DNA of 33,845 bases from an uncultured Eggerthellaceae bacterium (GCA_947650915.1 CANSWY010000016.1:1-33845), one strand, 5' to 3'; positions 7,760 through 32,471 are shown, numbered from the stretch's first letter. Translations and numbers: made by a program. Notes: generated from the letters alone by a model not told the origin.

Positions 7760-7855
7760 ATGTGCAAAAGGGACGTCCCAAATCGCACATAGGAATGCGC
7801 TCTCTGCGTTGATTTGCTCATCCTATGTGCAATTTGGAACGTCCCTTTTGCACAT
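7760..7855 (+). repeat. 96-bp palindromic intergenic element, copy A
   Basis: The left arm is 7760-7794, starting ATGTGCAAAAGGGACGTCCC. A 26-base loop follows, and the right arm is 7821-7855, ending GTCCCTTTTGCACAT. The arms mismatch at the conserved C/T position (GACGTCCC against the complement of GGAACGTC) and at one extra base (AATCGCAC). The loop is diverged from the other copies. It lies between two plus-strand genes, 37 bases before glpK. Confidence 0.95.
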
Positions 7856-9616: not shown

Positions 9617-10633
9617 TCAGCGGGTGCAGGGGATGGCGCCGCGTTCGCAGCGGTTGCCCCAGGAGTCTATGATGTCCTTGTCCCGGTAGACGCAGATGAC
9701 CTCGCAGTTGTTGGGGCACTTCTGGCATTCCACTTCGCGCGTCTTGAACTGGAAATCCTGTACGGCGTTGAAATCGAAGCTGCCACGGGCGAAGGGACCG
9801 GTGCCTCCGTCCTGCACCGGGCCGGCTTTGAGCGCCAAGAGCGCTGATCCGAACGCGCCCATGAGGTGCCCATCCGGGTCCACCATCACCTTCTGGCCCA
9901 GCAGGTCCTCGAAGGACTTCACCACGCCCTCGTTCTTGCTGACACCGCCTTGAAAGACGATGGGCGCCTCTATGCGCTTGCCTTTGCCCACGTTGTTCAG
10001 GTAGTTGGAGGCCACCGCGCGGCAGAGGCCGGCAATGATGTCCTCACGGGCATACCCCACCTGTATCTTGTGCACCAGGTCAGATTCGGCGAACACGGTG
10101 CAGCGCGCGGCGATGTTCGCGGGTTTTTCCGAGGTGAGCGCGATCTTGCCGAACTCCTCCACCTCCACGCCCAAGCGAGCCGCCTGGCTGGAGAGGAACG
10201 AGCCGGTGCCCGCGGCGCAGAGCGTGTTCATGGCGTAATCAGTGGCGATGCCGCCTTCCACGCAGATGATCTTCGAATCCTGGCCGCCGATCTCAAGGAT
10301 GGTGCGCACTTCAGGGTGCAGATAGGTGGTGCCCACGGCGTGGGCCGTGATCTCATTCTTGATGACCGTGGCGCCGATCATGGCGCCCACCAAACGCCGT
10401 GCGCTGCCCGTGGTGCCCGCGCCCACGATGCGCACGCCCTCATCTTCCAGCTGGCGCGCCAGCTCTGCCGCCACGCGCTTGGAGGCACCGGCCGGATCCC
10501 CTTCGGTCCAAAGGTAGGAACGCGCGATGATGTTCGCGTCTTCGTCTATGACCACGCCCTTGGTGGAGATGGAGCCGATGTCTATCCCCAGATAGGCTTC
10601 TTTCACTGCGTTCGCCGTGTTCGCGGTGCTCAT
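9617..10633 (-). CDS. BadF/BcrA/HgdC-type ATPase, acyl-CoA dehydratase activase (COG1924-like)
   Basis: A 338-residue ASKHA-fold ATPase. Family members hold a [4Fe-4S] cluster between two subunits and use ATP to inject a low-potential electron into a partner (2-hydroxyacyl-CoA dehydratase or benzoyl-CoA reductase). Visible are the phosphate loop YLGIDIGSISTKGVV, the hallmark GGQDSK at 116-121, and the cluster cysteines C139 (NTLCAAGTGSF) and C178 (AARCTVFAESD). A cysteine-rich tail follows (CQKCPNNCEVIC...CERG), typical of the longer COG1924 type. Its ATG overlaps the stop of the preceding gene (ATGA, 10630-10633). It is the last gene of a minus-strand run and acts with the two genes before it. 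The reaction is unknown. Confidence 0.9.
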   Translation of the reverse strand: MSTANTANAVKEAYLGIDIGSISTKGVVIDEDANIIARSYLWTEGDPAGASKRVAAELARQLEDEGVRIVGAGTTGSARRLVGAMIGATVIKNEITAHAVGTTYLHPEVRTILEIGGQDSKIICVEGGIATDYAMNTLCAAGTGSFLSSQAARLGVEVEEFGKIALTSEKPANIAARCTVFAESDLVHKIQVGYAREDIIAGLCRAVASNYLNNVGKGKRIEAPIVFQGGVSKNEGVVKSFEDLLGQKVMVDPDGHLMGAFGSALLALKAGPVQDGGTGPFARGSFDFNAVQDFQFKTREVECQKCPNNCEVICVYRDKDIIDSWGNRCERGAIPCTR

Positions 10634-11811
10634 CTGAGTTGCGCCTCCTTTTTCATGGCCAGCATGTCGTAGAACGCTTCCAAGCGCGTCATGAGGCCGG
10701 TGTCGCTGGTTTCCGTGTCATAGGTGAGGTACAGGATGGGGATCTTGAAGTCCTTGCTCAGTGATCGCAGGACCGGCATGGCGTCGATCTCTGGCGTGCA
10801 GCCGGTGCACTTCGCGTGGATGAGGCCGTCGAAGCCGCGCTCAGCGTATTCCTTTGCGGCCGCCAGCGTGAGCGTGGTGGTGGGGCCCATGTCGTAGGTC
10901 ACGTATTCGGAGATGCCGCGGCGCAGATTGGGTTCGTTGTAGTGCGTGTAGCGGTTCGTGAAGTTCAGCATCCGGTGCACTTCCACGCCCATGCCCATCA
11001 GCTTCTCGTCCAGATCCAGGTTGGATTCCATGTCGATGGCGGTGTACATCTCCCCGATGATGCCGATGCGGATGGGGCGCGCGGGCTTGTCCAGCGGCAC
11101 GGCGCGCATCTGGGCGGCAAAAGCGCTGTAGGCGGCGTCCACCTCTTTGGCAGAGGTGCAGCCCTCCAGCGCGTCCAGCAGGCCCTCCCACGCGCGCTTG
11201 CAGGCGCCCGGCTTTGTTTCGAATCCGGCGCATGTCATGTACAGATCGCGCGCTTGGTCCAGCTTCGTCATCATGTGCCCGCAGGCCAGAAGCTGCTTCA
11301 CGCCATGAGGGACGTTGATGTCGGGGTTCACCATCTTCATGACCTCTTTGGCCCAGCCCACGTATCCTTGTTCGATCCCGTGGGAGAAGTTCAGCATGGT
11401 GAAGTCATAGCCCATATCGCGCAGGATCTCTTCCTGCATCTCTCCGTAGAAGCCCAAGCGGCAGGGGCCTCCCACCTGCACCAGCACGTTCGCGCCGCGC
11501 TCCAGCGCTTCGATCCAGTCTCCCATCATGTGCTTGAAGGGCGTGCAGACATCGTCCGTAGAGCTTTGGATGCCCAGCTCCATGGTGCGCTTGGTGGCAG
11601 GGGGGAGCGCCAGGTAATCGCAATCCAGCACCTGTTCCACGAAGAACTTGAACGCGGGCGCGTAGTAGGCGTAGCGGAAGACGGCCACCTTCTTGTCCTT
11701 GTGGCGGTCTTTGCGGAAGCGCTTGCGCAGATCCTTCGCGCTGGTCCCTTTGAACGAAGGCGCGTCCGCGCCGTCAGCGCTGCCCGCCTTGATGCGGAAT
11801 TTCTTGAGCAT
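10630..11811 (-). CDS. 2-hydroxyacyl-CoA dehydratase-like protein (COG3581-like)
   Basis: A 393-residue protein of the HgdB/FldB-related fold. Conserved cysteines appear in DDVCTPFKHMMGD, VGGPCRLGFYGEMQ and HAKCTGCTPEIDAMPVL, consistent with Fe-S ligands. In many anaerobes this family stands beside a COG1924 activase and a DUF2229 protein, or is fused with them in one very long polypeptide. Here the three are separate. I chose ATG 11811, which gives MLKKFRIK and has a strong AGGAAGGAGG site upstream. An in-frame start at 11898 would add 29 unlikely residues inside the previous gene. Even so the gene overlaps its neighbour by 38 bases. It is not a standard alpha/beta dehydratase pair, so no substrate is claimed. 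Confidence 0.85.
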   Translation of the reverse strand: MLKKFRIKAGSADGADAPSFKGTSAKDLRKRFRKDRHKDKKVAVFRYAYYAPAFKFFVEQVLDCDYLALPPATKRTMELGIQSSTDDVCTPFKHMMGDWIEALERGANVLVQVGGPCRLGFYGEMQEEILRDMGYDFTMLNFSHGIEQGYVGWAKEVMKMVNPDINVPHGVKQLLACGHMMTKLDQARDLYMTCAGFETKPGACKRAWEGLLDALEGCTSAKEVDAAYSAFAAQMRAVPLDKPARPIRIGIIGEMYTAIDMESNLDLDEKLMGMGVEVHRMLNFTNRYTHYNEPNLRRGISEYVTYDMGPTTTLTLAAAKEYAERGFDGLIHAKCTGCTPEIDAMPVLRSLSKDFKIPILYLTYDTETSDTGLMTRLEAFYDMLAMKKEAQLR

Positions 11812-12823
11812 CCAGGTATCCTCCTTCCTGCTTGAAGCGCAGGATGTCGATGAAGCTCTCCACGCGCGTCTGAACGCCGGCGCTGCCGCTTTGCGCATCG
11901 ATCACCAGGTTCAGGATGGGCAGCTCCTTCAGGCGCCGCATGAGCGCGTCCGTGAACAGCGAATCCGGTCCACAGGGAAAGGCGCTCACCATCACGATGC
12001 CGTCCACGGCATCCTTCAGCTCCAGCGCAGCTCCGGCCAGTTCGCGGTTCACCAGCCAGGGAAGCGTTTCGGAGAACGCGAAGCTGCGCTTGAAGGATTT
12101 CGCGTGGTCCACCTCATCGGCGCAGACGATCACCGCACCCGCGGCCTCCAAGGCGTCTGTGATGTCTCCGCAGACGTAGCGGTCGTGCGCCAGATAGGGG
12201 TGCGCCACCAGCAGGATGAGCGGAGGCGCCAGCTCTTTCTGGTGTGGATCGGTTGAGGCCACCTTCCGGTATTTCGCCATGAGCGCCACCGTCTCCGCGG
12301 CGCGCTTGGCACGCTTCGCGTCTTCGGCGGCTTGTGCGGCGACAGCTGCCTTGTAGGCTTTCTTCGCCTGGGCGCCCGGCACCTTCAGGCGGCTGGCCAG
12401 ATCAAGGTAGGCCGCCTTCATCTTCTTCGCGTCCGTGGCATCTTCCAGGTCAAGGGAGATGACAGCGACGCCCTCTGCGCGGAAGGTGTTGCTCACCAGA
12501 TCCGGCAGCGATTGGAACTTCGTGCAGAATCCGGCGCGGTGGTTCACGCTGGCGAACGACGGGATGAAGACAGCGTCCACCTGGTCTTTGAGCGCGTCCA
12601 CGTGCCCCATGAACACCTTCGACGCCAGGCAGGCTTCGTCTATGGAAAGCGCGTCCCCTGCTTCCACCACGGCGCGGGTGGTGTCGCCGCTCACGACGAC
12701 CGTGAGGCCCACCTCTTCGAAGAAGGTGCGCCAGAGCGTGCCGTACTTGTGGAACAGGAGCGCTCGTGGGATGCCGACGGTGCGCACGGGATGCGCCGCA
12801 TCCGGCGCGTTCAGCATGGTCAA
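11774..12823 (-). CDS. DUF2229 acyl-CoA dehydratase activase-related protein (COG3580-like)
   Basis: A 349-residue protein. The N-terminal region matches DUF2229: VGIPRALLFHKYGTLWRTFF, then a cysteine in IDEACLASKVFMGHV and another in NHRAGFCTKFQSLP. It is the usual companion of COG1924 and COG3581 proteins and is thought to be part of the same ATP-driven electron-transfer machine. The start is either TTG 12823, six bases after AAGGAG, or ATG 12817. The TTG has the better spacing. Only one base separates it from the end of the PH-domain gene upstream. Lys/Ala-rich coil-forming sequence occupies about residues 148-185. Confidence 0.82.
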   Translation of the reverse strand: MTMLNAPDAAHPVRTVGIPRALLFHKYGTLWRTFFEEVGLTVVVSGDTTRAVVEAGDALSIDEACLASKVFMGHVDALKDQVDAVFIPSFASVNHRAGFCTKFQSLPDLVSNTFRAEGVAVISLDLEDATDAKKMKAAYLDLASRLKVPGAQAKKAYKAAVAAQAAEDAKRAKRAAETVALMAKYRKVASTDPHQKELAPPLILLVAHPYLAHDRYVCGDITDALEAAGAVIVCADEVDHAKSFKRSFAFSETLPWLVNRELAGAALELKDAVDGIVMVSAFPCGPDSLFTDALMRRLKELPILNLVIDAQSGSAGVQTRVESFIDILRFKQEGGYLDAQEIPHQGGQR

Positions 12824-17307: not shown

Positions 17308-17345
17308 GGACGGAGGTCACGAATCCTCCGTCCCTTCGTGACCTC
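17308..17345 (-). terminator. overlapping alternative hairpins at the end of the hydrogenase-ABC operon
   Basis: Two stems share bases. GAGGTCACGAA at 17313-17323 pairs with 17335-17345 (11 bp). GGACGGAGG at 17308-17316 pairs with 17325-17333 (9 bp). They cannot form together. The first covers the stop codon of the ABC gene (17344-17346). On the minus strand a weak pyrimidine run follows. Terminator is the simplest reading. Confidence 0.55.
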
Positions 17346-18732
17346 AGGGAAGGTGGACGATCTGGGCGTCCAGGAGGCGTGCGTCCGTTTCGTCATGGGT
17401 GGCCACGATGAGGGGGCGGCCGTCCAAGCGTTCGGTGATGAAGCGGCAGGCGCGCGTCCGGCTGTCCGCATCAAGGCCGGCGAAGGGTTCGTCCAACACG
17501 ATGGCCTGTCCGGCGGAAAGCAGGGCTCGGGCCAGCTCCGTCAGGCGCTTCATGCCGCCTGAGAGCTGTGCGGGCAAAAGATGCGCGCTTCCTTCGGGAA
17601 GCAGCCGCTGGAGCGCTGCCTTCGCGTCATCTTCGCTCACGCCAGGGGCGGCGGCCAGCATCACGTTCTGTGCAGCGGTGAGCCCGGTCACCAGCGTGGG
17701 CGTTTGCAGCATGGCGCCCACGCGCTCGGGCGCGGCTGCCTGCCCGCGTTCAGGGGCAGCGAGGCCCAGCGCCAGGTGGAGCGCCGTGGTCTTGCCGCTG
17801 CCGGTGGGCGCCATGAGGCAGACGCGCTGTCCAGGGTGGATGGCAAGCGTGAAGCCGTCCAGCACGTCCGTGGCGTAGGATTTCTGCACGCCGTCCCATC
17901 TGAGCGTTCCGGGTGCATCCGGTGCCGGGGAGGCTTCGGGTCTCGCCTTGAGCGCCATGCGCCCCGCGCGTCCCGAGAGGCGCAGGAGCGCCAGCACGGC
18001 CTGTTCGGTGAGCCAGCTCAAGACCATGACCATCACCGTCCAGACCAGCAGCTGGCCCGAATCCAGCGTGAGCTTGGAGGCGTGCACGGCGGATCCGATG
18101 GTGCCCAAAGGCAGGCACAGAAGCTCTGCGGTGACGCCGGCGCGCCAGGCCAGCGCCACGGCCGTCTTGCTGGCGGCCATGAAATAGGGAAGGGACGACG
18201 GCCACGCGCAGCAAAGGAAGATGCGCCAGCGCGCCACGCCTGCCAGGCGCAGCACCTCTTCGGTTTCGCGGGGGCGGTCGTCCAGAGCTTGTCCCATGCT
18301 CACGTAGAAGGGCGGGAAGGCCACGAACGCCACGATGGTGATGAGCGCGCCAGTGGATCCCCAGGCCACCAGCACGATGACGATCACGCAGGCCACCGGC
18401 GCGCTCTTCATCACCTGGAGCGCAGGTGCCATGAGGCGGCGCACCCAACAGAAGCGGTGCGCCAGCGCGCCCAGAAGGAGGCCGGCCAGCGCGGAGAGCG
18501 CGGCTGTGGCCAGGATGCGGGCCGTGGTGGCGCCCACGGCTTGCCAGAATGCGGCCTCTCCCAGGCTGCGCCCGAACGCGCGGGCCGTCTCAAGGGGGTT
18601 CGCGAACAGAAGATCGTTCCCCACCAGGGCCGCCACCAAAAACCAGATGGCCACCCAGAACACGATGCCGAGGGCAGCGCCCCCGGCATCGTTCAGCGTG
18701 CGTCCTGTCCGACCGCTTTGGGCCATGCTCAC
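17344..18732 (-). CDS. ABC transporter permease-ATPase fusion (NitT/TauT type)
   Basis: A 462-residue fusion. Residues about 15-255 form a permease with six hydrophobic segments like SsuC/TauC, including the EAA-type loop RPRETEEVLRLAGVARWRIF. Residues about 275-462 form an ATPase with Walker A APTGSGKTT (308-316), Q-loop Q343, signature LSGGMKR (390-396), Walker B AIVLDEP with E415, and the switch histidine in IVATHDET. These are normally two genes. Coupled with the substrate-binding lipoprotein just upstream it makes a complete importer of the sulfonate/nitrate/pyrimidine-precursor class. The start is GTG 18732 (GTGA overlap with the upstream stop) or ATG 18726. Confidence 0.88.
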   Translation of the reverse strand: MSMAQSGRTGRTLNDAGGAALGIVFWVAIWFLVAALVGNDLLFANPLETARAFGRSLGEAAFWQAVGATTARILATAALSALAGLLLGALAHRFCWVRRLMAPALQVMKSAPVACVIVIVLVAWGSTGALITIVAFVAFPPFYVSMGQALDDRPRETEEVLRLAGVARWRIFLCCAWPSSLPYFMAASKTAVALAWRAGVTAELLCLPLGTIGSAVHASKLTLDSGQLLVWTVMVMVLSWLTEQAVLALLRLSGRAGRMALKARPEASPAPDAPGTLRWDGVQKSYATDVLDGFTLAIHPGQRVCLMAPTGSGKTTALHLALGLAAPERGQAAAPERVGAMLQTPTLVTGLTAAQNVMLAAAPGVSEDDAKAALQRLLPEGSAHLLPAQLSGGMKRLTELARALLSAGQAIVLDEPFAGLDADSRTRACRFITERLDGRPLIVATHDETDARLLDAQIVHLP

Positions 18733-19751
18733 AAGAGGTAGAAGTCTTCCGCGGGCAGCGTACCGCCCATGGATGCCGGGTCCTGTTGCTCCAGCACGGC
18801 CAGATAGGCGGAGAGCGCGTCTTTCATCTCCTGTCCGGTGAGGCAGACCACGTTGCAGCGCGGGATGGCCGCTTCAGCGATCTTCAGGTCATCGATGATG
18901 CCCAGCGCCACCACCTCTTCCGCGATGGCCTCTGGGTCGGACTGCGCGATGGCGGCCGAGCGCGCGTGGCGCTCAAGGAACGCATCGATGGCGCCGCGCT
19001 TCTCGGCCACCGTGCCGGCCGTTGCGATGGTGACCCCGGTGATGAGGTTCCCGCGCTCTCCCTGGGTCACTTCATCCCATGCCTGCGTGAGGTCGATCCG
19101 CTGTTGGAGGGCGTCATCCTTCATGGTGGCGGAGGTGGCGAAGGGCTGCGGCAGGATGCCCACTGCTTCGTGGTCTTGCGCGATGAGCGCAGCCACTTCA
19201 GCCGGTTCGGACCGGAACTGGAGGTCCACCTGATCCGCCCCACCCGCAGCGTCCAGGAGTGCGCGGACGGTGCATTCGGGCACGGTGCCCTGGCCCGTCA
19301 GGTACACGGTGCGGCCGGCCAAGCCCTCCACGCTGTCCACGTCAGCAGCGCTCACGGCGTACAGGACGCCCAGCGTGTTCACGTCCAGCACGCGGATGTT
19401 CCCCTCCGTCTTCTGGTACAGCGTGGCGGCCAGATTCGCGGGCACCAGCACGATGTCCAGCTCCCCTTGCAGAAGCTTCGGGACTATCTCGTCAGCGGAC
19501 GCGGCCACGGTGAAGACGCCTTCATCCTTTTCCATCATGGCCGCCAGTCCCACGGAGGTGGGGCCTTTGAGCGATCCGATGCGCAGAGCGTCGGCCACTG
19601 CGGCCGCCTCTCCTGAAGCGGCTTCCGCAGCGGGAGCGCTGTTGTCCGCATTCGATCCCGCGTCTTGCGCAGGGGTGGCGCAGCCTGCAAGGGCCAGCGC
19701 CAGGCAGAGCGCGGCAACAGCCGCGAACGGCGTGAGCGTGCGCTTCTTCAT
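18729..19751 (-). CDS. ABC transporter substrate-binding lipoprotein
   Basis: A 340-residue periplasmic-binding-type lipoprotein. The signal peptide ends in LAGC (Cys24). An Ala/Ser-rich linker runs to about residue 53, and then a two-lobe solute-binding domain begins with ALRIGSLKGPTSVGLAAMM. DIVLVPANLAATLYQK and GVLYAVSAADVDSVEGLAGRTVYL fit the NMT1/SsuA/TauA class (COG0715). The ligand cannot be deduced. It overlaps the hydrogenase gene upstream by four bases and the permease-ATPase downstream by four, so hydrogenase and transporter are translationally linked. Confidence 0.88.
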   Translation of the reverse strand: MKKRTLTPFAAVAALCLALALAGCATPAQDAGSNADNSAPAAEAASGEAAAVADALRIGSLKGPTSVGLAAMMEKDEGVFTVAASADEIVPKLLQGELDIVLVPANLAATLYQKTEGNIRVLDVNTLGVLYAVSAADVDSVEGLAGRTVYLTGQGTVPECTVRALLDAAGGADQVDLQFRSEPAEVAALIAQDHEAVGILPQPFATSATMKDDALQQRIDLTQAWDEVTQGERGNLITGVTIATAGTVAEKRGAIDAFLERHARSAAIAQSDPEAIAEEVVALGIIDDLKIAEAAIPRCNVVCLTGQEMKDALSAYLAVLEQQDPASMGGTLPAEDFYLL

Positions 19752-21559
19752 CGGGCGGCCTCTTCTTTCTCCACGCCTGCGCCTGCAGGCTGGTGGATGG
19801 TGTGCAGCAGATGATGGGCCAGATCAGAACAGGGTTCGCCGAAGAACTCCTGGTACAGCATCTGGATCTGCGGGTTCTCGTGCGAATAACGCAGCGGCAT
19901 CTGGGTGCGGTCGATGGCGCGCAGCGTGGTGCCGCGGACCATGCCCAGTTCGCGGTCCGTGCCGTCGATGGGTTGGCCGCCGCCGCCCGCGCAACCACTG
20001 GGACAGGCCATGATCTCAACGAACTCGTATTCCGCCACGCCCGTGCGGATGGCGTCCAAGAGCGCTTCGGCGTTGGAGAGGCCATGGGCCACGGCGCACC
20101 TCACCGGCGTGCCGTCCATATCGAACGTGCCTTCCGTCCAGGCACCGTGTTCGGACACGGTGAACGCGAAACCGTCCGGCGGGGGCAGCTGGCCGGTGGC
20201 CACGTAGCAGGCCGTGCGCAGCGCTGCCTCCATCACGCCGCCAGTGGTGCCGAAGATGACGCCCGCGCCCGTGAACGTGCCCAGGGGGTCATCCAGTGGC
20301 GCGTCTTCCAAGGCGGTCACATCCATGTCGGCGTTGCGGATCATGCGCACCAGTTCGCGCGTGGTGAGCGCCGCGTCCATGTCCGGCACGTCGTCGTGGG
20401 AGCTGATGGGCAGCGTCACTTCGCGCTTCTTCGCCGTGCAGGGCATGAGCGCCACGGAGAAGATGTCTTTCGGAGCCAGCCCGTGGGCATCGGCGAACCA
20501 GGTCTTCGCTACGGCACCGAACATCATCATGGGGCTCTTCGCGGTGGACAGGTGCGGCACCGCATCCGCGTGTGCCTCCTTCGCGCGCTGCACCCAGGCC
20601 GGGCAGCAGCTGGTGAACATGGGCCAAGTGATGCCGTTCTCATCCGGTCTGCGTTCACTCAGGCTGGCCAGGAGCTCCGTGCCCTCTTCCATGATGGTCA
20701 GATCCGCCGCCAGGCAGGTGTCGAAGACGTAGTCCACGCCCAGTTCCTTCAGCGCGGCCACCATGCGCTCAACGGGCAGGGTGCCGTCTTCCACGCCCAG
20801 CCCAACGCCCCAGGACGTGCGCGTGGCGGGCGCGATCTGCACCACGGTGGTGATGTTCGGGTCAGCGATGGCATCCAGCAAACGCTGGGTGTCGTCGCGT
20901 TCGGTGAGGGCGCCGGTGGGGCAGTGCGTGATGCATTGGCCGCAGGCGACGCACCCCGCTTGGCGCATGGTGGCGTGATGTTCCACGCCCACGGTGGAAC
21001 GCGCGCCGGTGTTGAGGAAACTCCAGACGCCGATGCCCTCCAGCTTGCTGCAGGCAGCGATGCAGCGGCCGCATTTCACGCAGCGGTTCTCATCGCGCTG
21101 CACGATGGCCTCCGCCGGCCATTCAGCACGGCGGCCTTTCACCAGGCTGCGCGGGTAGGGGGTGGGAGATTCGGTCATGAACAGGCCGCTGGGATCCCAG
21201 GCGATGAGGCCTTCGTCCAGCAGCAGCTTCTGGAAGCGGCAGGTGCCGTTGCGTTTGCAGTAGGCGCAGTTCAGGTCATGCTGGGACAGCAGCAGCTCCA
21301 GCGCGCAGCGGCGCGCTTCGTGCACAGCCTCGGTGTCCGTCTGCGCGCTCATGCCCTCTTGCACGACGGTGTTGCAGGCCGCAGCCAGGCGCTCTTCGCC
21401 TTCCACTTCCACCACGCACACGCGGCAGGCACCGATGTTGTTCAAGTCTTCGAAGTGGCAGAGCGTGGGCACCTCTGCGCCCGCTTTCCGGGCCGCTTGC
21501 AGGATGGTGGTGCCGGCTTCCACTTCTACGGGCGTGCCGTTCACGGTCAGCTTCACCAT
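19748..21559 (-). CDS. hydA: [FeFe]-hydrogenase catalytic subunit, group A type
   Basis: A 603-residue [FeFe]-hydrogenase that interconverts H2 with protons and electrons in the cytoplasm. The N-terminal [2Fe-2S] domain has C34, C45, C48 and C62. The His-ligated [4Fe-4S] motif is H94, C98, C101 and C107. Two ferredoxin clusters are at C160/163/166/170 and C203/206/209/213. H-cluster motifs are FTSCCPAWV (C318 proton-relay, C319 ligand), LMPCTAKKRE (C374) and EIMACPSGCAGGGGQP (C519, C523). The C-terminal small-subunit-like tail is fused. ATG 21559 has AGGAGG upstream. An earlier in-frame start would lie inside the preceding gene. It overlaps that gene by seven bases. The maturases HydEFG are not in the window. 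Confidence 0.97.
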   Translation of the reverse strand: MVKLTVNGTPVEVEAGTTILQAARKAGAEVPTLCHFEDLNNIGACRVCVVEVEGEERLAAACNTVVQEGMSAQTDTEAVHEARRCALELLLSQHDLNCAYCKRNGTCRFQKLLLDEGLIAWDPSGLFMTESPTPYPRSLVKGRRAEWPAEAIVQRDENRCVKCGRCIAACSKLEGIGVWSFLNTGARSTVGVEHHATMRQAGCVACGQCITHCPTGALTERDDTQRLLDAIADPNITTVVQIAPATRTSWGVGLGVEDGTLPVERMVAALKELGVDYVFDTCLAADLTIMEEGTELLASLSERRPDENGITWPMFTSCCPAWVQRAKEAHADAVPHLSTAKSPMMMFGAVAKTWFADAHGLAPKDIFSVALMPCTAKKREVTLPISSHDDVPDMDAALTTRELVRMIRNADMDVTALEDAPLDDPLGTFTGAGVIFGTTGGVMEAALRTACYVATGQLPPPDGFAFTVSEHGAWTEGTFDMDGTPVRCAVAHGLSNAEALLDAIRTGVAEYEFVEIMACPSGCAGGGGQPIDGTDRELGMVRGTTLRAIDRTQMPLRYSHENPQIQMLYQEFFGEPCSDLAHHLLHTIHQPAGAGVEKEEAAR

Positions 21560-23385
21560 GCTGCCACCTCCTGGCTCTTCGTGGCTGCGAACCCGTGATG
21601 GTCGCACCTCAGGCATCTGCTGGCTTCTTGCAGCGCCTCTTCCTCCGTCATGCCCAGTTTCGCCAGTTCGAAGGTCTGCGCGGCTTCGGCGAATAGGATG
21701 TCCTTCAGGTCTATGCGGCCGCACGGCCCGATGGCCGGCTCAGCCGCGGGGACCTCCACCGGGTCGAACACGTTGTGGGTGAAGCCCAGCGCCTCATCTA
21801 TGTTGGCGGCCGCCACCTTGCCTGCGGCGATGGCCTTGATGACGGTGGCTGGGCCGCTGACGGCGTCCCCGCCAGCGTAGAGCGGCGTGGGCGCATCGGC
21901 GATGGAGCCGTCTTCGCGGGCCACGATGCAGCCGCGTTCGGTCTGCACCACGTCAGCGAACGCATCAGAGTCAATGGCTTGCCCGATGGCCACCAGCACC
22001 ACGTCGCAGGGGATGGTGCGCGCGGGCACGTTCGCGGCGTAGGGAGCCGGACGGCCGCCGCGCCCGATGGCGCCGATGATCTGCGGCTGCACCACCAGAC
22101 CGGTGACGTTGCCCGCACCGTCCGTTTCGATGGCCACGGGCGCCTGCAGCTGCGTGATCTGGCAGCCTTCGGCCTTCGCCTCATCAATCTCTTCGGGAAG
22201 CGCCGTCATGTCCGTGATGCGGCGCCGATAGACGCATTCCACCGACGCGGCGCCCAGGCGCTTGGCGGTGCGCGTGCAGTCCATGGCCACGTTGCCGCCG
22301 CCCACCACGCACACGCGCTTGCCGGCAAGATCCGGCGCGCACCCGCTGCCGGCCGCGCCCAGGAACTCAACGGCCGAAAGGACGCCCTCGGCCTCTTCGC
22401 CATCACAGCCCAGCTTCTTGCCGTCGTGGGCGCCGATGGCCACGTACACCGCGTCGTGATCTTCAAGGAGCGTGCTGAAGTCCACGTCAGTGCCCACCGC
22501 GCAGCCTGCTTTCACTTCAATGCCGGTGCTCAGGATGAAGCTGATGTCCGCGTCAAGCTTGTCCTGGGGCAGGCGGTAGTCCGGGATGCCGTAGCGCACC
22601 ATGCCGCCCAGCTTCTCGCGTTGGTCGTAGATGGTGACCGCGTGCCCCATGAGGCGCAGGTAATAGGCGGCCGTGAGACCAGCGGGGCCGCCGCCCACCA
22701 CCGCGATGGTCTTGCCGGTGTCCGGCAGCGGCTTCGGCGCCGGACTCCACTGGGCGTTGTCAGCGGCGAAGCGCTTGAGGCCGCAGATGTTCACGGGCGC
22801 GTCCACCAGGGAGCGGCGGCAGGTCATCTCGCAGGGGTGTTCGCACACGTATCCGCACACCGTGGGCAGCGGGTTGTTGTTGCGGATCACGCGCAGGGCG
22901 TCATCCAGCCGCCCGGCGCGGATGCAGCCGATGTAGGCGGGGATGTCAACGTGCGCGGGGCAGGTGCTGGTGCAGGTGGCTTCGGCCTTCACCTCTTGGG
23001 AGCAGGCGTCGTGTTGCACGTGGCTTTCGAAATCCTCCGCGAAGCCAGCCAGGGCGTCCAGGAGCATCTTGCCGGCCGTGAAGCCGATGGCGCAATCAGA
23101 TGCGGTGAACATCACCTGTGCGGTGGCCTTGAGCGCCTCCACGTCCGCTTCGCTTCCGTTGCCGTCCAGGATGCGGTCCAGCTTCTCCGAACAGGCTTTC
23201 AGGCCCACGCGGCAGGGCGTGCACTTCCCGCAGGAATCCGCCAGGTACATCCGCGCCAAAGACGCGGTGAAATCCACCGGGCATTTGCCCGAGGGGATGG
23301 AGACCAGCCGGGTGGCCGCTCCTTCAGCCAGCGCAGCGTGCTCCCTCTGCGTGCGCGGCTCCTCTTCTATCAACAAGCGTGACAT
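21553..23385 (-). CDS. NuoF-like Fe-S domain fused to GltD-type FAD/NAD(P) oxidoreductase
   Basis: A 610-residue flavoprotein partner of the hydrogenase. Residues about 30-122 match only the C-terminal [4Fe-4S] region of NuoF/HydB (SCGKCTPCRVG, C52, C55, C58, with C98). The FMN/NADH-binding Rossmann part of NuoF is absent. From about 135 it is like the glutamate synthase small subunit or NfnB: Fe-S cysteines TCTSTCPAHVDIP and CGYVCEHPCEMTC, an FAD site VVGGGPAGLTAAYYL (about 229-243), and an NAD(P) site VCVVGGGNVAMD. It probably moves electrons between NAD(P)H and the hydrogenase. Start ATG 23385 has AGAAGGAGG. This is the first gene of the four-gene operon. Confidence 0.9.
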   Translation of the reverse strand: MSRLLIEEEPRTQREHAALAEGAATRLVSIPSGKCPVDFTASLARMYLADSCGKCTPCRVGLKACSEKLDRILDGNGSEADVEALKATAQVMFTASDCAIGFTAGKMLLDALAGFAEDFESHVQHDACSQEVKAEATCTSTCPAHVDIPAYIGCIRAGRLDDALRVIRNNNPLPTVCGYVCEHPCEMTCRRSLVDAPVNICGLKRFAADNAQWSPAPKPLPDTGKTIAVVGGGPAGLTAAYYLRLMGHAVTIYDQREKLGGMVRYGIPDYRLPQDKLDADISFILSTGIEVKAGCAVGTDVDFSTLLEDHDAVYVAIGAHDGKKLGCDGEEAEGVLSAVEFLGAAGSGCAPDLAGKRVCVVGGGNVAMDCTRTAKRLGAASVECVYRRRITDMTALPEEIDEAKAEGCQITQLQAPVAIETDGAGNVTGLVVQPQIIGAIGRGGRPAPYAANVPARTIPCDVVLVAIGQAIDSDAFADVVQTERGCIVAREDGSIADAPTPLYAGGDAVSGPATVIKAIAAGKVAAANIDEALGFTHNVFDPVEVPAAEPAIGPCGRIDLKDILFAEAAQTFELAKLGMTEEEALQEASRCLRCDHHGFAATKSQEVAAW

Positions 23386-23423: not shown

Positions 23424-23501
23424 TCCTGGTCGTGTTTCGCTTCTGTTGCATGCGAGCGTGGAGTGCGCCCTCCCGCGACGAACGGGCATCCGCGCGAAAA
23501 G

Positions 23502-23597
23502 ATGTGCAGAAGGGACGTCCCAAATTGCACATAGGGTCGGTCTTCCAGCGCGCATCATCTTTTCCTATGTGCAATTTGGAACATCCCTTCTGCACAT
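23502..23597 (+). repeat. 96-bp palindromic intergenic element, copy C
   Basis: Arms have AGAAGGG on the left and the matching CCCTTCT on the right. The loop contains GGTCTTCCAGCGCGC. The right arm has GGAACATCCC. It lies in the 452-base divergent gap between the hydrogenase operon and the response regulator. Apart from copies C and D and candidate promoters, this gap holds nothing I recognise. Confidence 0.95.
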
Positions 23598-23685
23598 CGA
23601 CGCACTCCTTTCGGGCCGCTTGTTCGACCGCGGATTCTTGGGTGTTCTTGTGTTGGAAGCTGCACGCTCTGCCAGTTGACCTCCC

Positions 23686-23781
23686 ATGTGCAAAAGGGAC
23701 GTCCCAAATTGCACATAGGATCGGTCTTCCAGCGCGCATCATCTTTTCCTATGTGCAATTTGGAACATCCCTTTTGCACAT
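23686..23781 (+). repeat. 96-bp palindromic intergenic element, copy D
   Basis: Its loop is identical to that of copy C, 88 bases away, but its arms have AAAAGGG and CCCTTTT. It also shares the GGAACATCCC right-arm variant with copy C. The two are evidently a recent duplication. Confidence 0.95.
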
Positions 23782-23837: not shown

Positions 23838-24536
23838 ATGGGAGGCGTGCTCATCGTGGAGGATGACCGGGACTTGGCGCCCATCATGGCGCGGGCGCTG
23901 GAAGCTGAGGGCTTCACCGCGCGCGTGGCATCCAGCGCTGAAGAGGCCTACGACGCGCTCTCCCAGGCGGCGTTCGACTGCCTGGTGCTGGACATCAACC
24001 TGCCGGGGGATGACGGCATCGCGCTCTGTCGCAACCTGCGGGCTTCAAGCGGCGTGCCCGTGCTCTTCGCTTCCGCGCGCTTGGGGGAGGACGTGCGCGT
24101 GCGCGCCTTGGATGAAGGCGGGGACGCGTATCTGCAGAAGCCCTTCAGCCTGCGCGAGATGACGGCGCAGGTGGGCGCGCTCATCCGGCGCAACGCTGGC
24201 GCACGGCCGGGCGGGGCGGACGCGCGCCCGTTCGGCCCGTTCACGCTGGATGCGGCAGCGGGGCGCATCCTGAAGCGTGGGGTGGAAGCCAGGCTCTCGC
24301 CCAAGGAATACGAGCTGGCAGCCTATCTGATGCGGCATGAGGGCAGCGTGTGGTCCCGCGATGCGCTTCTGGCGGAGGTGTGGGGCGCGTTCGCGGCGGT
24401 GGAGCCGCAGACGGTGGCCGTGCATATGAGCTGGATCCGCGCGAAGCTGGAGGACGATCCTGCGCGCCCGCAGCACTTCAAGACGGTGCGCGGCCAGGGT
24501 TACCGGTTCACCTCAGGCGAAGAGGCCACCGCATGA
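23838..24536 (+). CDS. OmpR/PhoB-family response regulator
   Basis: A 232-residue response regulator. The receiver domain (about 1-115) has acidic residues D9-D10, phosphoacceptor D52 in CLVLDINLPGDDG, S79 and K101 (LQKPFS). The C-terminal winged helix (about 130-228) has LSPKEYELAAYLMRHEG and the terminal VRGQGYRF typical of OmpR/PhoB proteins. Start ATG 23838 follows AAAGGAGG. Its stop overlaps the histidine kinase ATG. It probably binds the 11-bp-spaced direct repeat at 25729-25745 and controls the ABC transporter downstream. Confidence 0.95.
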   Translation: MGGVLIVEDDRDLAPIMARALEAEGFTARVASSAEEAYDALSQAAFDCLVLDINLPGDDGIALCRNLRASSGVPVLFASARLGEDVRVRALDEGGDAYLQKPFSLREMTAQVGALIRRNAGARPGGADARPFGPFTLDAAAGRILKRGVEARLSPKEYELAAYLMRHEGSVWSRDALLAEVWGAFAAVEPQTVAVHMSWIRAKLEDDPARPQHFKTVRGQGYRFTSGEEATA

Positions 24537-25744
24537 GCGCGCGGTCCGGCACGCGCGTGCGCACGCGCTTCCGTGCGGCGGTCATCATCGCGCTGAGCAC
24601 CGTGCTCTGCGCCGCGGCGGCAGCGGCGGCCATCTGCTGGCAGGGCGGTGCCGAAAATGCGCTGCGCACAGAAGTGCTCCAGTTGAACGAAGCGCGCGTG
24701 AGCCTCGCCTCTGATGCGGCCGATGCGGCTGAGGCGCCTTCGGGCGGCAGCTCCACATCACAGGCAGCGGATGAGGCGCTGGCGGCTGCCCAGGAGACGC
24801 TCCGGAGCGCAGCGGATGCGCGCAGCCAGTCCACATGGGCGGCCTTGGCGTGCGTCGCCGCTGCCGCATGCGCGGCCGTCGCCGGGTTGGCGCTGTATCT
24901 GCATCGCAGCATCGTGGCGCCGTTCTTGCGCCTGGACGCGTTCGCGGAGGAAGTGGCGCGCGGGAATCTGGACGCGCCCCTGGCCTACGAACGTGCGAAT
25001 CCGTTCGGCAGCTTCGCCTGGGCGTTCGACCACTTGCGCGTGGAGCTGGCCCGGTCGCGCGCGGCCGAGGCGGAAGCGGATGAGGCCTACAAGACGGCGC
25101 TGGCGTCGCTCTCCCATGACCTGCGCACGCCCCTGGCGGCCTTGCGCGCCCATGCGGAGGCGCTGGAGATGGGCCTTGCGCGCACGCCGGAGGAGCGCGC
25201 GGCCTATGAGCGCTTGATCCAGGAGAAGTGCGATGAAGCCGCGGCTCTGGTGGAGGACCTGCTCTCCCATGCGCTGGCGGACATGGGGCGCATCCAAGTG
25301 GCGTGCGAGGCGCAGGATGCAGCGCCCATCCTGCGGGCGTGCGTGGAGGGGTTCTCGTCCGCGGTGCCGCTTTCCTGCGCGCAGGTGGACGCGGCGCGCG
25401 TGTCCGTGGATGCCAAGCGCTTGGCGCAGGCGGTGGACAACCTGCTGGCGAACGCGGCGAAGCACGCGCCCGGCGCGCGGGTGGAGGTGTCCGGCGTGCG
25501 CACGGCGGAAGCGTACCGCATCACCGTGCGCGATTTCGGCCCGGGCATGGCACCGGAGGACCTGCCGTTCGCGCAGATGAGGTTCTTCCGCGGCGCGAAC
25601 GCGAAGGAGGTGCCGGGAGCGGGACTGGGGCTGTTCATCAGCGCTCACTTGGCTGAGCGCATGGGCGGACGGCTCATGGTGGAGAACGCGGAACCGGGAT
25701 TGCGCGCTGTGATCGAATTGCCGCTTCTCTTAATGACTTCTTAA
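24533..25744 (+). CDS. sensor histidine kinase
   Basis: A 403-residue membrane kinase. TM1 is about residues 14-35, a short external Ala/Ser-rich sensor follows (about 36-100), and TM2 is about 102-123. Then come HAMP, the HisKA box SLSHDLRTPLAALRAH with H195, the N-box VDNLLANAAKH (N303), and G-boxes DFGPGM (334-339) and GAGLGLFIS (362-370). The small sensor loop suggests it detects membrane or transporter state and not a large ligand. The start ATG 24533 overlaps the regulator's stop (ATGA). An in-frame start at 24350 lies inside the regulator gene and was rejected. Confidence 0.95.
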   Translation: MSARSGTRVRTRFRAAVIIALSTVLCAAAAAAAICWQGGAENALRTEVLQLNEARVSLASDAADAAEAPSGGSSTSQAADEALAAAQETLRSAADARSQSTWAALACVAAAACAAVAGLALYLHRSIVAPFLRLDAFAEEVARGNLDAPLAYERANPFGSFAWAFDHLRVELARSRAAEAEADEAYKTALASLSHDLRTPLAALRAHAEALEMGLARTPEERAAYERLIQEKCDEAAALVEDLLSHALADMGRIQVACEAQDAAPILRACVEGFSSAVPLSCAQVDAARVSVDAKRLAQAVDNLLANAAKHAPGARVEVSGVRTAEAYRITVRDFGPGMAPEDLPFAQMRFFRGANAKEVPGAGLGLFISAHLAERMGGRLMVENAEPGLRAVIELPLLLMTS

Positions 25745-25745
25745 T
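25729..25745 (+). promoter_or_regulatory. predicted OmpR/PhoB-type regulator box before the ABC transporter
   Basis: CTTAAT occurs at 25729-25734 and again at 25740-25745, an 11-base step typical of PhoB-class direct-repeat boxes. A TACGGT that could serve as -10 lies at 25757-25762, eleven bases past the box, the normal distance for such activators. The box overlaps the end of the kinase gene, 57 bases before the ATPase start. Confidence 0.5.
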
Positions 25746-25801
25746 CTGCGGGCGGGTACGGTGCATGTGATGCAGATGCCGTTTCGAAGATGAGGAGACC
25801 C

Positions 25802-26584
25802 ATGGGAGGCGAACCGATCCTGAGCGCTGCGCGCTTGGCGAAGAGCTATGTGACCGATGGCGTGCAGACCCACGTGCTGCTGGGCGTCGATCTTGAGATC
25901 CGTGAAGGGGATTTCACCGTGCTGATGGGGCCGTCCGGCTCCGGCAAGTCCACGCTGCTCTATTGTCTTTCCGGCATGGATGCGCCCACTGCCGGCGAGG
26001 TGCGCTTTCGGGGCAAGCTGATATCCGGCGCAAAGGAGAACGAACTGGCGGAACTGCGCGCCCAGAGCTTCGGCTTCGTGTTCCAGGCGGCTCACCTGGT
26101 GAGCGATCTGACGCTGTTCGAGAACGTGGTGGTGCCGGGATACCTCAAGCGCGGGCGCAGCGCGCATGAGGCACGGGGGGTGGCAGAAGGCCTCATCAGC
26201 CGCATGGGCCTGGAGGAGGTGGCGGCCCATCTGCCGAACCAGTCATCCGGAGGCCAGCAGCAGCGTTGTGCGGTGGCCCGCGCGGTGGTGAATCGGCCGG
26301 ACATCGTCTTCGCCGATGAGCCCACGGGCGCGCTCAACCAGGCCAACAGCCGGGAAGTGCTGGGGCTTTTGGGCGGCCTCAACGCCGAAGGCCAGACGGT
26401 GCTCATGGTCACCCATGACGTGAAGAGCGCCATCCGGGGCAACCGCCTGCTCTACTTCGAAGACGGTGCCATCCGCGGCGAGATGGCCCTGCCCGCATGG
26501 GACGCGGCGCGGGCCGAAGACGCCGCCTATGTCCGTGACCGCGAGGCGCAGGCCACCGCATGGCTTTCGTCCCTGGCGTGGTAG
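25802..26584 (+). CDS. ABC transporter ATP-binding protein (MacB/LolD type)
   Basis: A 260-residue ATPase. Walker A is GPSGSGKST (43-51), the Q-loop is in FGFVFQAAHLV, the signature is the variant SSGGQQQR, Walker B is IVFADEPTGALN, and the switch is VTHDVKSA. The ADEPTGALN stretch is typical of the MacB/LolD/BceA family, which works with FtsX-type permeases to move or respond to peptides, lipoproteins or lipids. ATG 25802 has GAGGAG upstream. It is followed 10 bases later by its permease. Regulator, kinase, ATPase and permease make a classic two-component-controlled ABC module. Confidence 0.93.
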   Translation: MGGEPILSAARLAKSYVTDGVQTHVLLGVDLEIREGDFTVLMGPSGSGKSTLLYCLSGMDAPTAGEVRFRGKLISGAKENELAELRAQSFGFVFQAAHLVSDLTLFENVVVPGYLKRGRSAHEARGVAEGLISRMGLEEVAAHLPNQSSGGQQQRCAVARAVVNRPDIVFADEPTGALNQANSREVLGLLGGLNAEGQTVLMVTHDVKSAIRGNRLLYFEDGAIRGEMALPAWDAARAEDAAYVRDREAQATAWLSSLAW

Positions 26585-26594
26585 GGGTGCGCTC

Positions 26595-29030
26595 ATGGAA
26601 CCCGTGCGCACGCTGACGCTGGCCGGCCTCAAGCGCAACGCAAGGACGTTCGCAGGCTTGGCCGTTCTGCTGGTGCTGGCGGCCTTCGCGCTCACGTTCA
26701 CCATCAGCCTGCATGCCGACCTGTCCGGCCGGGCCCTTGCCAGCTATGAAGAAACGGGCGGAGGCGATGTGCATGCCCTTGATTGGGTGGAAGAGACGGA
26801 AGGGGAGCCGGCGCGCCGCCTCCAAGCGCTGTCGGAGGTGGGCCAGGTGCGCGTGCTGCGGGCATTCTCCGCGCCCATGGCCTTCGAGGACGCCGAAGGG
26901 GAGCCGCTGGGAGAATCGGAGAGCGTCACCGCGTTCTTCGAACCCTGGGGCAGAGGCCTGGAGGTGAAGGCGCTCTCGGACGGCTTCGATTCCTACGAGG
27001 CGGATGCTCCAGGACCGAAGGCGGATGAGGTGTATGTGACGCCTGCGGAGAACGTGCTCTCCCAGCTGGAAGTGGGGGATTCGGTGGTGATCAGCTTGGG
27101 CCAGGAAGAGCGGCGGTTCACCGTGGCGGGCTTCTTCGAAGACCCGCAGATGGGGTCTCCTTTCATGGGAACGAGGCGCTTCTTGTTGGATCCTCAGACG
27201 TTCGATGAGCTGCTGCCCTTGGCCGAAGAGGAGATGGCCCGCGCGGGCGGTGCGAATCCGTTCGCGGTGGAGAAATCCACCTATCCGTTCATGGAATACG
27301 AGGTGGACTTGTCCGATGAAGCGCGTGCGGCAGGGCTTGACGGGCGCGATCTGGCGCGCATCCTGGAAGAGGAGGGCGTCTGGTCGCGGGAGGCCAGTGT
27401 CTTTTCCGAAGAGACGATGCTGGGGCAGAGCCTCATCGTGGTGCAGGTCATATCAGCGCTGCTGGCCGTGTTTGCGCTGCTCTTGTTCGTCATCGCGCTC
27501 ACGCTCTGCGTGCATTCCGCATCCGTGGCCATCGAAGAGGGCTATGCGGACCATGGCATCGCGAAAGCGGTGGGCGTCACGCCGGGGATGCTCTCCTGTG
27601 CGCTCATCCTCCAGTACGCCTTGACGGCGCTCGGTGCGCTCGCCGTGGGCTTCGCGGTGGGGCTTTTCGTGGAACCGGTGGCGTGGCCGCCGTTCCTCAT
27701 GGTCACGGGCGTGCTGGTGCAGGCATCTGTCTTCCCGGCGGCCGCCCTTGCGATCCTGGGGCTGCTCTTCGCGGTGCTGGTGTGCGCTGTGGCGCTCAAA
27801 GCGCGCAAGATCGGGCGCATCACGCCGCTTGCGGCTCTGCGCCAAGGGGCCGGGGACGTGCGCTTCTCGCCGCGGGGCAGCTGCAAGATCAGCGGATCGC
27901 GCCTGAGCGCGTCCCTTGCGTGGCGGGCGGTTGCATCCCGGAAGCGCAGCTATGTGGGCCTGGGCGTCTGCGCGCTTCTGCTCTGCGCGTTCATAGCGCT
28001 CTGCTTCGGGATCGGCGCTGCGGTGTCCGAAGACGAAGCCGTCAACCGCGCGTTCGGCATCTGGGAAAGCGACGTGTCCGTGGAGCTGGTCTCTGACGAA
28101 GTGGGGCCGGAGGAGGTGCGCGAGGCCATCGAAGAGGTGGCGCCCATCTCCCACGAGTGGCTGGAGGGCGCGTACATGCTCAATCTGGACGGAGCGGCGC
28201 GGACGTTCTTGGGCCTATCTGATCCCAGCGTCTTGGACGAGTCGTCGCTGATCGAAGGGCGCATGCCCCGGCAGTCCAACGAGGTGATGGTGGGCTTGAA
28301 CCTGGCCCGGAGCCAGGATCTTTCCGTGGGCGATGAGCTGGTGATCGCTGATCCTTCCGGGCAGGAGAAGACGCTCATCGCCTGCGGCGTGGTGTCTTCG
28401 GTGCTCAACGGCGGCGACGGCGCGTTCCTCACCTTCGAGGGTTTGCAGCGCCTGGTGGGCGATGACCTGGAGGATGCCAGCAGGGCGCGCCAATACCAGC
28501 TTGAGGATGCAGAGAAGGCCGATGCGGTGCGGGCTCATCTTGAAGAGCGGTTCGGAGATGAGGTGGACACGAGGCTCACGGGCCTGTTCGGATCGGCTGC
28601 GGGCATGATCCTGCTCGTCCGGAACATCCTGACCGCCATCGGCTATGCCATGTGCGCGTTCGCTGCGCTGATCGCGGTGGCTGCGGTGGCGCTGGTGAGC
28701 CAGCGGATGCTCTCTGCCGAACGGGCGGATCTGGGGGCGCTGCGCGCGTGCGGGTTCAAGGTGCGCGCGCTCCGCGTGTCCTTCGCCTGGCGGTTCTTCG
28801 GCGTGGCCTTGGCCGGCGGTGCGGTGGGCGCGGCCGCGGCGTTCCTCGGGGGCAGCAGCCTGGTGGGCAGCTTGTTCAGCCTGTTCGGCGCAGGGGCGTT
28901 CACCATCGCGCTTCCCGTGTGGTCAGCGGCGGCGGTGACGGTGGCGCTGGCGTTGGTGTTCGCCGCGTCCGCCTACGTCTTCTCCCGCTCCATCCGCACC
29001 GTCAGCATCCAAGCCCTGGTCACCGAATGA
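26595..29030 (+). CDS. FtsX-like ABC transporter permease (MacB family)
   Basis: An 811-residue permease. A first helix (about 20-40) is followed by a large extracellular domain, a three-helix FtsX domain (about 315-440, including the membrane segment VISALLAVFALLLFVIALTL), a fourth helix near 480-510, a second extracellular domain, and a second FtsX domain at the C-terminus (about 680-810, AERADLGALRACGFKVRALR). This two-FtsX layout is common in Gram-positive transporters controlled by two-component systems. ATG 26595 (MEPVRTLTLAGLKRN) fits the family. An in-frame start at 26466 falls inside the ATPase gene. The transported or sensed compound is unknown. Confidence 0.92.
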   Translation: MEPVRTLTLAGLKRNARTFAGLAVLLVLAAFALTFTISLHADLSGRALASYEETGGGDVHALDWVEETEGEPARRLQALSEVGQVRVLRAFSAPMAFEDAEGEPLGESESVTAFFEPWGRGLEVKALSDGFDSYEADAPGPKADEVYVTPAENVLSQLEVGDSVVISLGQEERRFTVAGFFEDPQMGSPFMGTRRFLLDPQTFDELLPLAEEEMARAGGANPFAVEKSTYPFMEYEVDLSDEARAAGLDGRDLARILEEEGVWSREASVFSEETMLGQSLIVVQVISALLAVFALLLFVIALTLCVHSASVAIEEGYADHGIAKAVGVTPGMLSCALILQYALTALGALAVGFAVGLFVEPVAWPPFLMVTGVLVQASVFPAAALAILGLLFAVLVCAVALKARKIGRITPLAALRQGAGDVRFSPRGSCKISGSRLSASLAWRAVASRKRSYVGLGVCALLLCAFIALCFGIGAAVSEDEAVNRAFGIWESDVSVELVSDEVGPEEVREAIEEVAPISHEWLEGAYMLNLDGAARTFLGLSDPSVLDESSLIEGRMPRQSNEVMVGLNLARSQDLSVGDELVIADPSGQEKTLIACGVVSSVLNGGDGAFLTFEGLQRLVGDDLEDASRARQYQLEDAEKADAVRAHLEERFGDEVDTRLTGLFGSAAGMILLVRNILTAIGYAMCAFAALIAVAAVALVSQRMLSAERADLGALRACGFKVRALRVSFAWRFFGVALAGGAVGAAAAFLGGSSLVGSLFSLFGAGAFTIALPVWSAAAVTVALALVFAASAYVFSRSIRTVSIQALVTE

Positions 29031-32327: not shown

Positions 32328-32357
32328 TGTGCAAAAGGGACGTCCCAAATTGCATAT
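32327..32357 (+). repeat. extra left half-unit before copy F
   Basis: This is one left-arm unit (ATGTGCAAAAGGGACGTCCC, then AAATTGCATAT) that begins inside the stop codon of the preceding gene. A spacer of 18 bases, different from the one near copy E, separates it from copy F. The GGGACGTCCC cores are 49 bases apart. Confidence 0.9.
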
Positions 32358-32375
32358 AGCACGAGCGACCCCAGG

Positions 32376-32471
32376 ATGTGCAGAAGGGACGTCCCAAATT
32401 GCACATAGGAACAGTCTTTCAGGGCTGATTCTCTTTTTCTATGTGCAATTTGGAACGTCCCTTCTGCACAT
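32376..32471 (+). repeat. 96-bp palindromic intergenic element, copy F
   Basis: Left arm AGAAGGG pairs with right arm CCCTTCT, the same matched variant as copy C. The loop contains AGTCTTTCAGGGC. It lies between convergent genes, 20 bases from the stop of the aldo/keto reductase. Confidence 0.95.

Follow-up and report, generated by a model that had tools for sequence, protein, structure and literature searches.

The window, a stretch of 33,845 nucleotides from an uncultured Eggerthellaceae bacterium, contains an operon of four genes, all on the minus strand. The original prediction placed here a NuoF/GltD flavoprotein, an [FeFe]-hydrogenase (HydA), a substrate-binding lipoprotein (SBP) and a permease–ATPase fusion, overlapping in series by 4–7 bases; all four open reading frames are indeed present, and the measured overlaps are 7, 4 and 4 bp. 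The first gene (21553–23385) encodes NuoF-C/GltD, in which the C-terminal 4Fe-4S domain of NuoF (PF10589, NADH_4Fe-4S, 39–122) is fused to a GltD-type FAD/NAD(P) flavoprotein (PF14691, Fer4_20, 134–212; PF07992, Pyr_redox_2, 226–522); it matches NF009410 at 554 bits, above the cut-off. The NuoF portion consists of this C-terminal domain only and the NADH/FMN domain is missing, so that the protein is not a full NuoF and the GltD flavin is the probable entry point for electrons from NAD(P)H. NuoF-C/GltD is likely to be the electron-input subunit of the hydrogenase. HydA (19748–21559) is the catalytic subunit of a group A [FeFe]-hydrogenase with N-terminal 2Fe-2S and 4Fe-4S clusters. It contains Fe_hyd_lg_C (PF02906, 258 bits) and Fe_hyd_SSU and passes the curated cut-off of TIGR02512 (424.4 versus 405.95 bits), whereas its score against NF040763, the model for NADH-dependent group A6 enzymes, is below threshold (671.9 versus 765 bits).

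The remaining two genes encode a complete importer. The SBP (18729–19751), for which we propose a role as binder of a cofactor or cofactor precursor, carries a lipobox (LALAGC, residues 19–24) and belongs to a hydrogenase-linked, COG0715-like clade. Its profile matches are weak (SsuA_fam/NMT1/VitK2_biosynth), the score for the aliphatic sulfonate-binding family TIGR01728 (SsuA_fam) being 41 bits against a cut-off of 163.5. The permease–ATPase fusion (17344–18732) combines PF00528 (BPD_transp_1, 83–242) with PF00005 (ABC_tran, 291–418), the latter with a Walker A motif (APTGSGKT) and a signature motif (LSGGMKR). A type II binding fold, a BPD permease and an ABC ATPase with Walker A and LSGG motifs are thus all present, as in NitT/TauT importers (COG0715/0600/1116). 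The fusion starts with GTG and has no clear ribosome-binding site, making translational coupling likely. No riboswitch or other Rfam RNA was found around the operon.

An AlphaFold2 model of the SBP (pLDDT 89) adopts the type II binding-protein fold. By fold it is closest to 3hn0 (Z 30.9; 25% identity, profile E 2e-26), which is BDI_1369, an SBP of Parabacteroides distasonis from structural genomics and the closest solved structure; the PQQ-binding protein PqqT comes second (Z 26, 16–17% identity), followed by sulfonate, bicarbonate and nitrate binding proteins, these Z-scores indicating fold and not ligand. The invariant positions of the SBP (GPT 63–65, P104/N106, T126, G153/G155/P158, E185, P201/P203, W225 and C299) appear, with the exception of C299, to fall within loops that in this fold are usually turned towards the ligand. 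In the alignment, no basic residue is invariant in the pocket loops, where one might be expected if the ligand were a dianion.

Natural [FeFe]-hydrogenases are taken to require HydE, HydF and HydG. The window genome, which is 98.57% complete and has a single Fe_hyd_lg_C gene, contains none of the three over curated cut-offs: HydG and HydE give zero matches even at E 0.001, and the HydF matches cover just the shared, generic GTPase domain. By the combination that marks a canonical HydEFG-matured system, HydE, HydF and HydG in one genome, it does not encode such a system. Across the 138 genomes of the window's family, group A HydA occurs in 65 and the SBP in 49. The SBP is found in 31 of 32 HydA-bearing genomes that are maturase-free (no maturase over cut-off) and in 5 of 33 that bear maturases (Fisher p = 3.5e-12; the Fisher values ignore relatedness, and many of the genomes are draft MAGs). 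The lone SBP-less exception, G104, has a HydE fragment beside HydA at a contig edge. Three of the five double-positives (G031, G096 and G099) hold only members of a separate clade of the SBP tree, most genes of which adjoin large BadF-ATPase/2-hydroxyacyl-CoA-dehydratase-like (double-cubane-like) genes; because of this clade, we rejected a treatment of all 49 SBP-positive genomes as one functional group. The other two (G063 and G098) each have two hydA operons, one adjoining the SBP and the other clustered with hydE and hydG. Once the separate clade is removed and G104 is moved to the maturase-bearing genomes, the counts become 31/31 versus 2/34 (p = 1.6e-16). The tree does not include the SBPs of G130 and G117; those of G110 and G131 form long branches, yet fall outside the double-cubane clade. 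The corrected table has the gene pattern of cofactor scavenging, with target enzyme and importer present and biosynthesis genes absent. Two genomes, G075 and G076, have a related importer and no PF02906 gene, which counts against the explanation that we favour below.

In about 19 of the 31 maturase-free, HydA-bearing family genomes, the SBP and ABC genes adjoin HydA or its NuoF/GltD partner, and the relatives sharing this linkage include some with SBPs of 34–57% identity. In some relatives the SBP–ABC pair is divergent from the NuoF/GltD–HydA pair rather than downstream of it, and in about 12 family genomes importer and HydA are far apart or on different contigs. Gene order and linkage vary, whereas co-occurrence persists, so hitchhiking is not required to explain it. 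The pairing is therefore not confined to this strain: gene neighbourhoods show it in close and distant relatives from several genera. This recurrence, together with the co-occurrence of unlinked importer and HydA genes, supports the earlier suggestion that the tight linkage reflects one process. No further gene turns up repeatedly in the conserved operons.

In a phylogeny of 76 HydA sequences from the window's family, HydG-bearing and SBP-bearing states are interleaved. The SBP-only state requires 10 changes, at least 8 of which are forced by well-supported branches. Among independent pairs differing in HydG, the SBP differed in the opposite direction in a mean of 6.2 of 8 and in the same direction in 0 (sign test, median p ~0.03), a more conservative test than the kinship-blind Fisher values.

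The same exclusion is seen in another phylum, among Lachnospiraceae, in which HydG and HydF were sought. Of 298 sampled genomes, 279 have PF02906 genes; 94 of these carry the SBP only, 100 HydG only, 32 both and 53 neither (Fisher p = 2e-11). The 32 genomes with both count against our favoured explanation. In 80 hand-picked genomes, HydF was present in 1 of 32 with the SBP only, 22 of 36 with neither and 11 of 12 with HydG only; the first two figures, set against each other, indicate that the importer marks hydrogenase genomes without known maturation machinery. The other 14 of the 36 lack HydF as well as HydG and SBP, pointing to a third route or to incomplete genomes; these, too, count against our favoured explanation. 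A second hydrogenase-linked importer in the "neither" genomes was considered and rejected, as none appeared in 19 HydA neighbourhoods and most of those tested for HydF have it. More widely, the SBP profile detected at least 583 relatives when run against species genomes. The best 80 of these were kept; they are mostly from host-associated Coriobacteriia and Lachnospiraceae, nearly all from gut or rumen samples, and HydG was found in 7 of the 47 SBP-bearing genomes searched among them.

In Lachnospiraceae, the importer is also joined to hydrogenases of other classes. It lies directly upstream of a group B hydrogenase in L099 (TIGR04105, 574 bits) and likewise in L104. In L043, L074 and L087, it lies directly downstream of an [FeFe]-hydrogenase–chemoreceptor (HydA-MCP) fusion, identified by Pfam (PF02906 and MCPsignal) in L043 and L087 and by similarity in L074, and in each of the three the SBP and permease–ATPase genes overlap by 4 bp. 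In L040, L041, L046 and L059, the importer and a sensory-type HydA are encoded divergently, and L040 also has genes for a SpoIIE-like phosphatase and a group B enzyme close by. Several genomes of this last kind also have HydG; in these, the importer may serve as a supplementary salvage system. The common denominator of these importer-joined hydrogenases is the H-cluster domain; their electron partners and roles differ.

The H-cluster pocket of the window HydA is intact. Its L1, L2 and L3 motifs are TSCCP, MPCTAKK and MACPSGC, and the counterparts of CpI C300, C355, C499 and C503 are all aligned. Alignment to CpI shows that the maturase-free HydAs retain the cysteines of the H-cluster, the Cys and Glu of the proton path and the Lys and Met of the diiron site, the divergent L138 (from G131) departing from CpI at the methionines. 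They nest among maturase-linked HydAs of the same family, from which many are nearly indistinguishable in the pocket segments. Two substitutions are found close to the H-cluster in the window clade: Met at CpI position Q325 and PSGC in place of PGGC. Judged from these conserved ligands and pocket residues, HydA is expected to need the diiron subsite. A degenerate hydrogenase was rejected as the leading explanation on this alignment.

The exclusion pattern is strong, and for the cargo we hypothesize the following. The importer may stand in for HydEFG, bringing in either the diiron subsite or an organometallic precursor of it, a reading of the gene content to which we give an even chance. Lacking HydE, HydF and HydG, the cell would be unable to make the diiron half of its H-cluster, and the operon would pair an NAD(P)H-linked [FeFe]-hydrogenase with a means of supplying its cofactor. 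In the anoxic gut, neighbours bearing HydEFG would release the subsite or a late precursor (iron with CO and CN ligands), which the lipoprotein SBP would capture and the permease–ATPase would move into the cytoplasm. Apo-HydA, with its [4Fe-4S] cluster already in place, would accept the imported unit and could thereby be active in vivo. Somewhat more tentatively, the diiron cofactor or its precursor may be a shared good, released by HydEFG producers and imported by many maturase-free gut bacteria, through a dedicated ABC importer, for their hydrogenases and H2 sensors. HydEFG-bearing bacteria are probably common in gut and rumen, so the ecology should permit import; we know of no demonstration of free H-cluster precursor in the gut.

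Chemistry also permits an uptake route, since living Escherichia coli and Synechocystis without maturases form active HydA from the apo-enzyme when synthetic [Fe2(adt)(CO)4(CN)2]2- is supplied in the medium (PMC6984386). There, too, an external diiron complex serves HydA without maturases, but as a laboratory procedure with no dedicated transporter. A natural parallel is pyrroloquinoline quinone (PQQ), which non-producers scavenge (PMC12124388) through the outer-membrane importer PqqU and periplasmic PqqT; non-producers likewise import the redox cofactor of others, and the fold of the window SBP is near that of PqqT. The two differ in cofactor and cell envelope: in the window system, what is proposed to be imported is an organometallic iron cluster, and the import partner is an ABC transporter encoded alongside the target enzyme. 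HydEFG-dependent maturation has the same target, a group A HydA with an intact H-cluster pocket, whereas the window genome has an importer where HydE, HydF and HydG are absent. In the openly licensed literature, we found no report of the HydA–importer pairing, of maturase-free HydA, with or without an importer, or of H-cluster uptake.

If our favoured explanation is right, the operon would represent the first H-cluster supply in nature that is independent of HydEFG, and gut H2 metabolism would be a community trait, such that H2 production predicted from hydA alone would be wrong for importer strains. A natural transporter for an organometallic Fe–CO–CN complex would then exist, of use for semi-synthetic hydrogenases. 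The import prediction is addressable in cultured species such as Adlercreutzia agrestimuris. In Collinsella aerofaciens, stationary-phase H2 is ascribed to formate hydrogenlyases, which are reported in Coriobacteriaceae (PMC12578642), and H2 in pure cultures of this species therefore does not decide whether HydA is active.

The exclusion of HydEFG would also be explained if the importer supplied a simple precursor, such as a CO/CN source, a sulfur ligand or a metal, from which a HydEFG-independent intracellular route built the H-cluster. COG0715-type binding proteins usually take small molecules and, according to the discussion in PMC9431212, exogenous CO and CN can partly replace HydG given HydE and HydF. 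In the window's family, however, HydF and HydE are missing as well, and with no additional gene recurring in the operons every substitute enzyme would need to be encoded elsewhere in the genome; we regard this explanation as unlikely.

Less probable still is that HydA has lost its diiron subsite and taken on a new role, the importer serving separately for nutrient uptake in host-adapted bacteria with reduced genomes. The absence of HydEFG and the two substitutions near the H-cluster in the window clade would fit such a change of function. However, ligands and proton-path residues have been kept across at least 8 independent switches, most maturase-free pockets are nearly identical to those of maturase-linked enzymes, and the 31/31 association with the importer would be left unexplained.

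The original prediction had offered two roles for the pairing, namely that the imported compound is a substrate reduced by the NAD(P)H/HydA complex or that it is sensed on behalf of the hydrogenase. Apart from the operon linkage itself, two observations fit such roles: the sister importer clade goes with double-cubane-type reductase genes, and NitT/TauT importers of the COG0715 type have been reported beside clade B Ni-CODH, a low-potential metalloenzyme, with nickel import proposed; [FeFe]-hydrogenase genes also lie beside some CODHs (PMC6344411, PMC13056359, PMC11338639). The likeness to the window system is one of COG type (COG0715/0600/1116), and the partner there is CODH, not a hydrogenase. 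Neither role is favoured by our results, and we give the pair of them only a slim chance. Neither predicts the absence of HydEFG or explains why the importer is present in genomes without HydE, HydF and HydG; apart from the H-cluster, HydA contains no domain for a substrate; and the importer joins hydrogenases with differing electron partners as well as H2-sensor fusions. Finally, a coincidental linkage or the hitchhiking of an unrelated importer, for which the standalone importer copies beside tig–clpP–clpX in many Lachnospiraceae might speak, is very improbable given the co-occurrence of unlinked genes, the linkage to several hydrogenase classes and the result of the independent-pairs test.

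The importer is also found beside a different kind of hydrogenase gene. At three Lachnospiraceae loci (L043:649-4922, L074:189-4447 and L087:7991-12402), a gene for an [FeFe]-hydrogenase/methyl-accepting-chemotaxis fusion is followed by the substrate-binding protein and permease-ATPase of the same importer. These operons possibly encode a chemoreceptor that senses H2, together with an importer dedicated to its cofactor.

Two genomes of one genus, G075 and G076 (loci L140 and L142), carry an importer of this kind, outside the double-cubane clade of binding proteins, without any PF02906 (hydrogenase large subunit C-terminal domain) gene; this may reflect another use of the cargo or recent loss of the hydrogenase. 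At many Lachnospiraceae loci (for example, L108 and L047), standalone importer copies are located immediately 5' of tig-clpP-clpX, in conserved order. The maturase HydF is present in 22 of the 36 tested HydA-containing Lachnospiraceae genomes that lack both HydG and the importer (for example, G202, G241, G376 and G450), which suggests a HydG-independent maturation route.

The window also contains double-cubane-cluster-protein-like genes, composed of a BadF/BcrA-type ATPase gene and two DUF2229/HGD-D genes (9617-12823, minus strand). Elsewhere in the family, members of a separate second clade of the same importer have a fused version of these genes downstream. The segment 212-7132 contains a gene for an aldehyde:ferredoxin oxidoreductase, together with a set of molybdopterin oxidoreductase, 4Fe-4S and NrfD genes that belongs to the polysulfide- or thiosulfate-reductase type. 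Divergent from the hydrogenase operon is a typical two-component/ABC export cassette (23838-29030, plus strand), in which genes for a response regulator and its histidine kinase precede those for an ABC ATPase and an FtsX-like permease.

Finally, a palindromic repeat is dispersed over the window, with 14 half-site matches versus 0 expected. Folding gives an almost perfect stem of 32 bp (z -10.5), and the repeat has no match in Rfam. Two copies (23500-23600 and 23680-23780) sit just 5' of the NuoF/GltD gene; others are located near 7768, 9407, 29137 and 32335-32463, with a half-site at 107.
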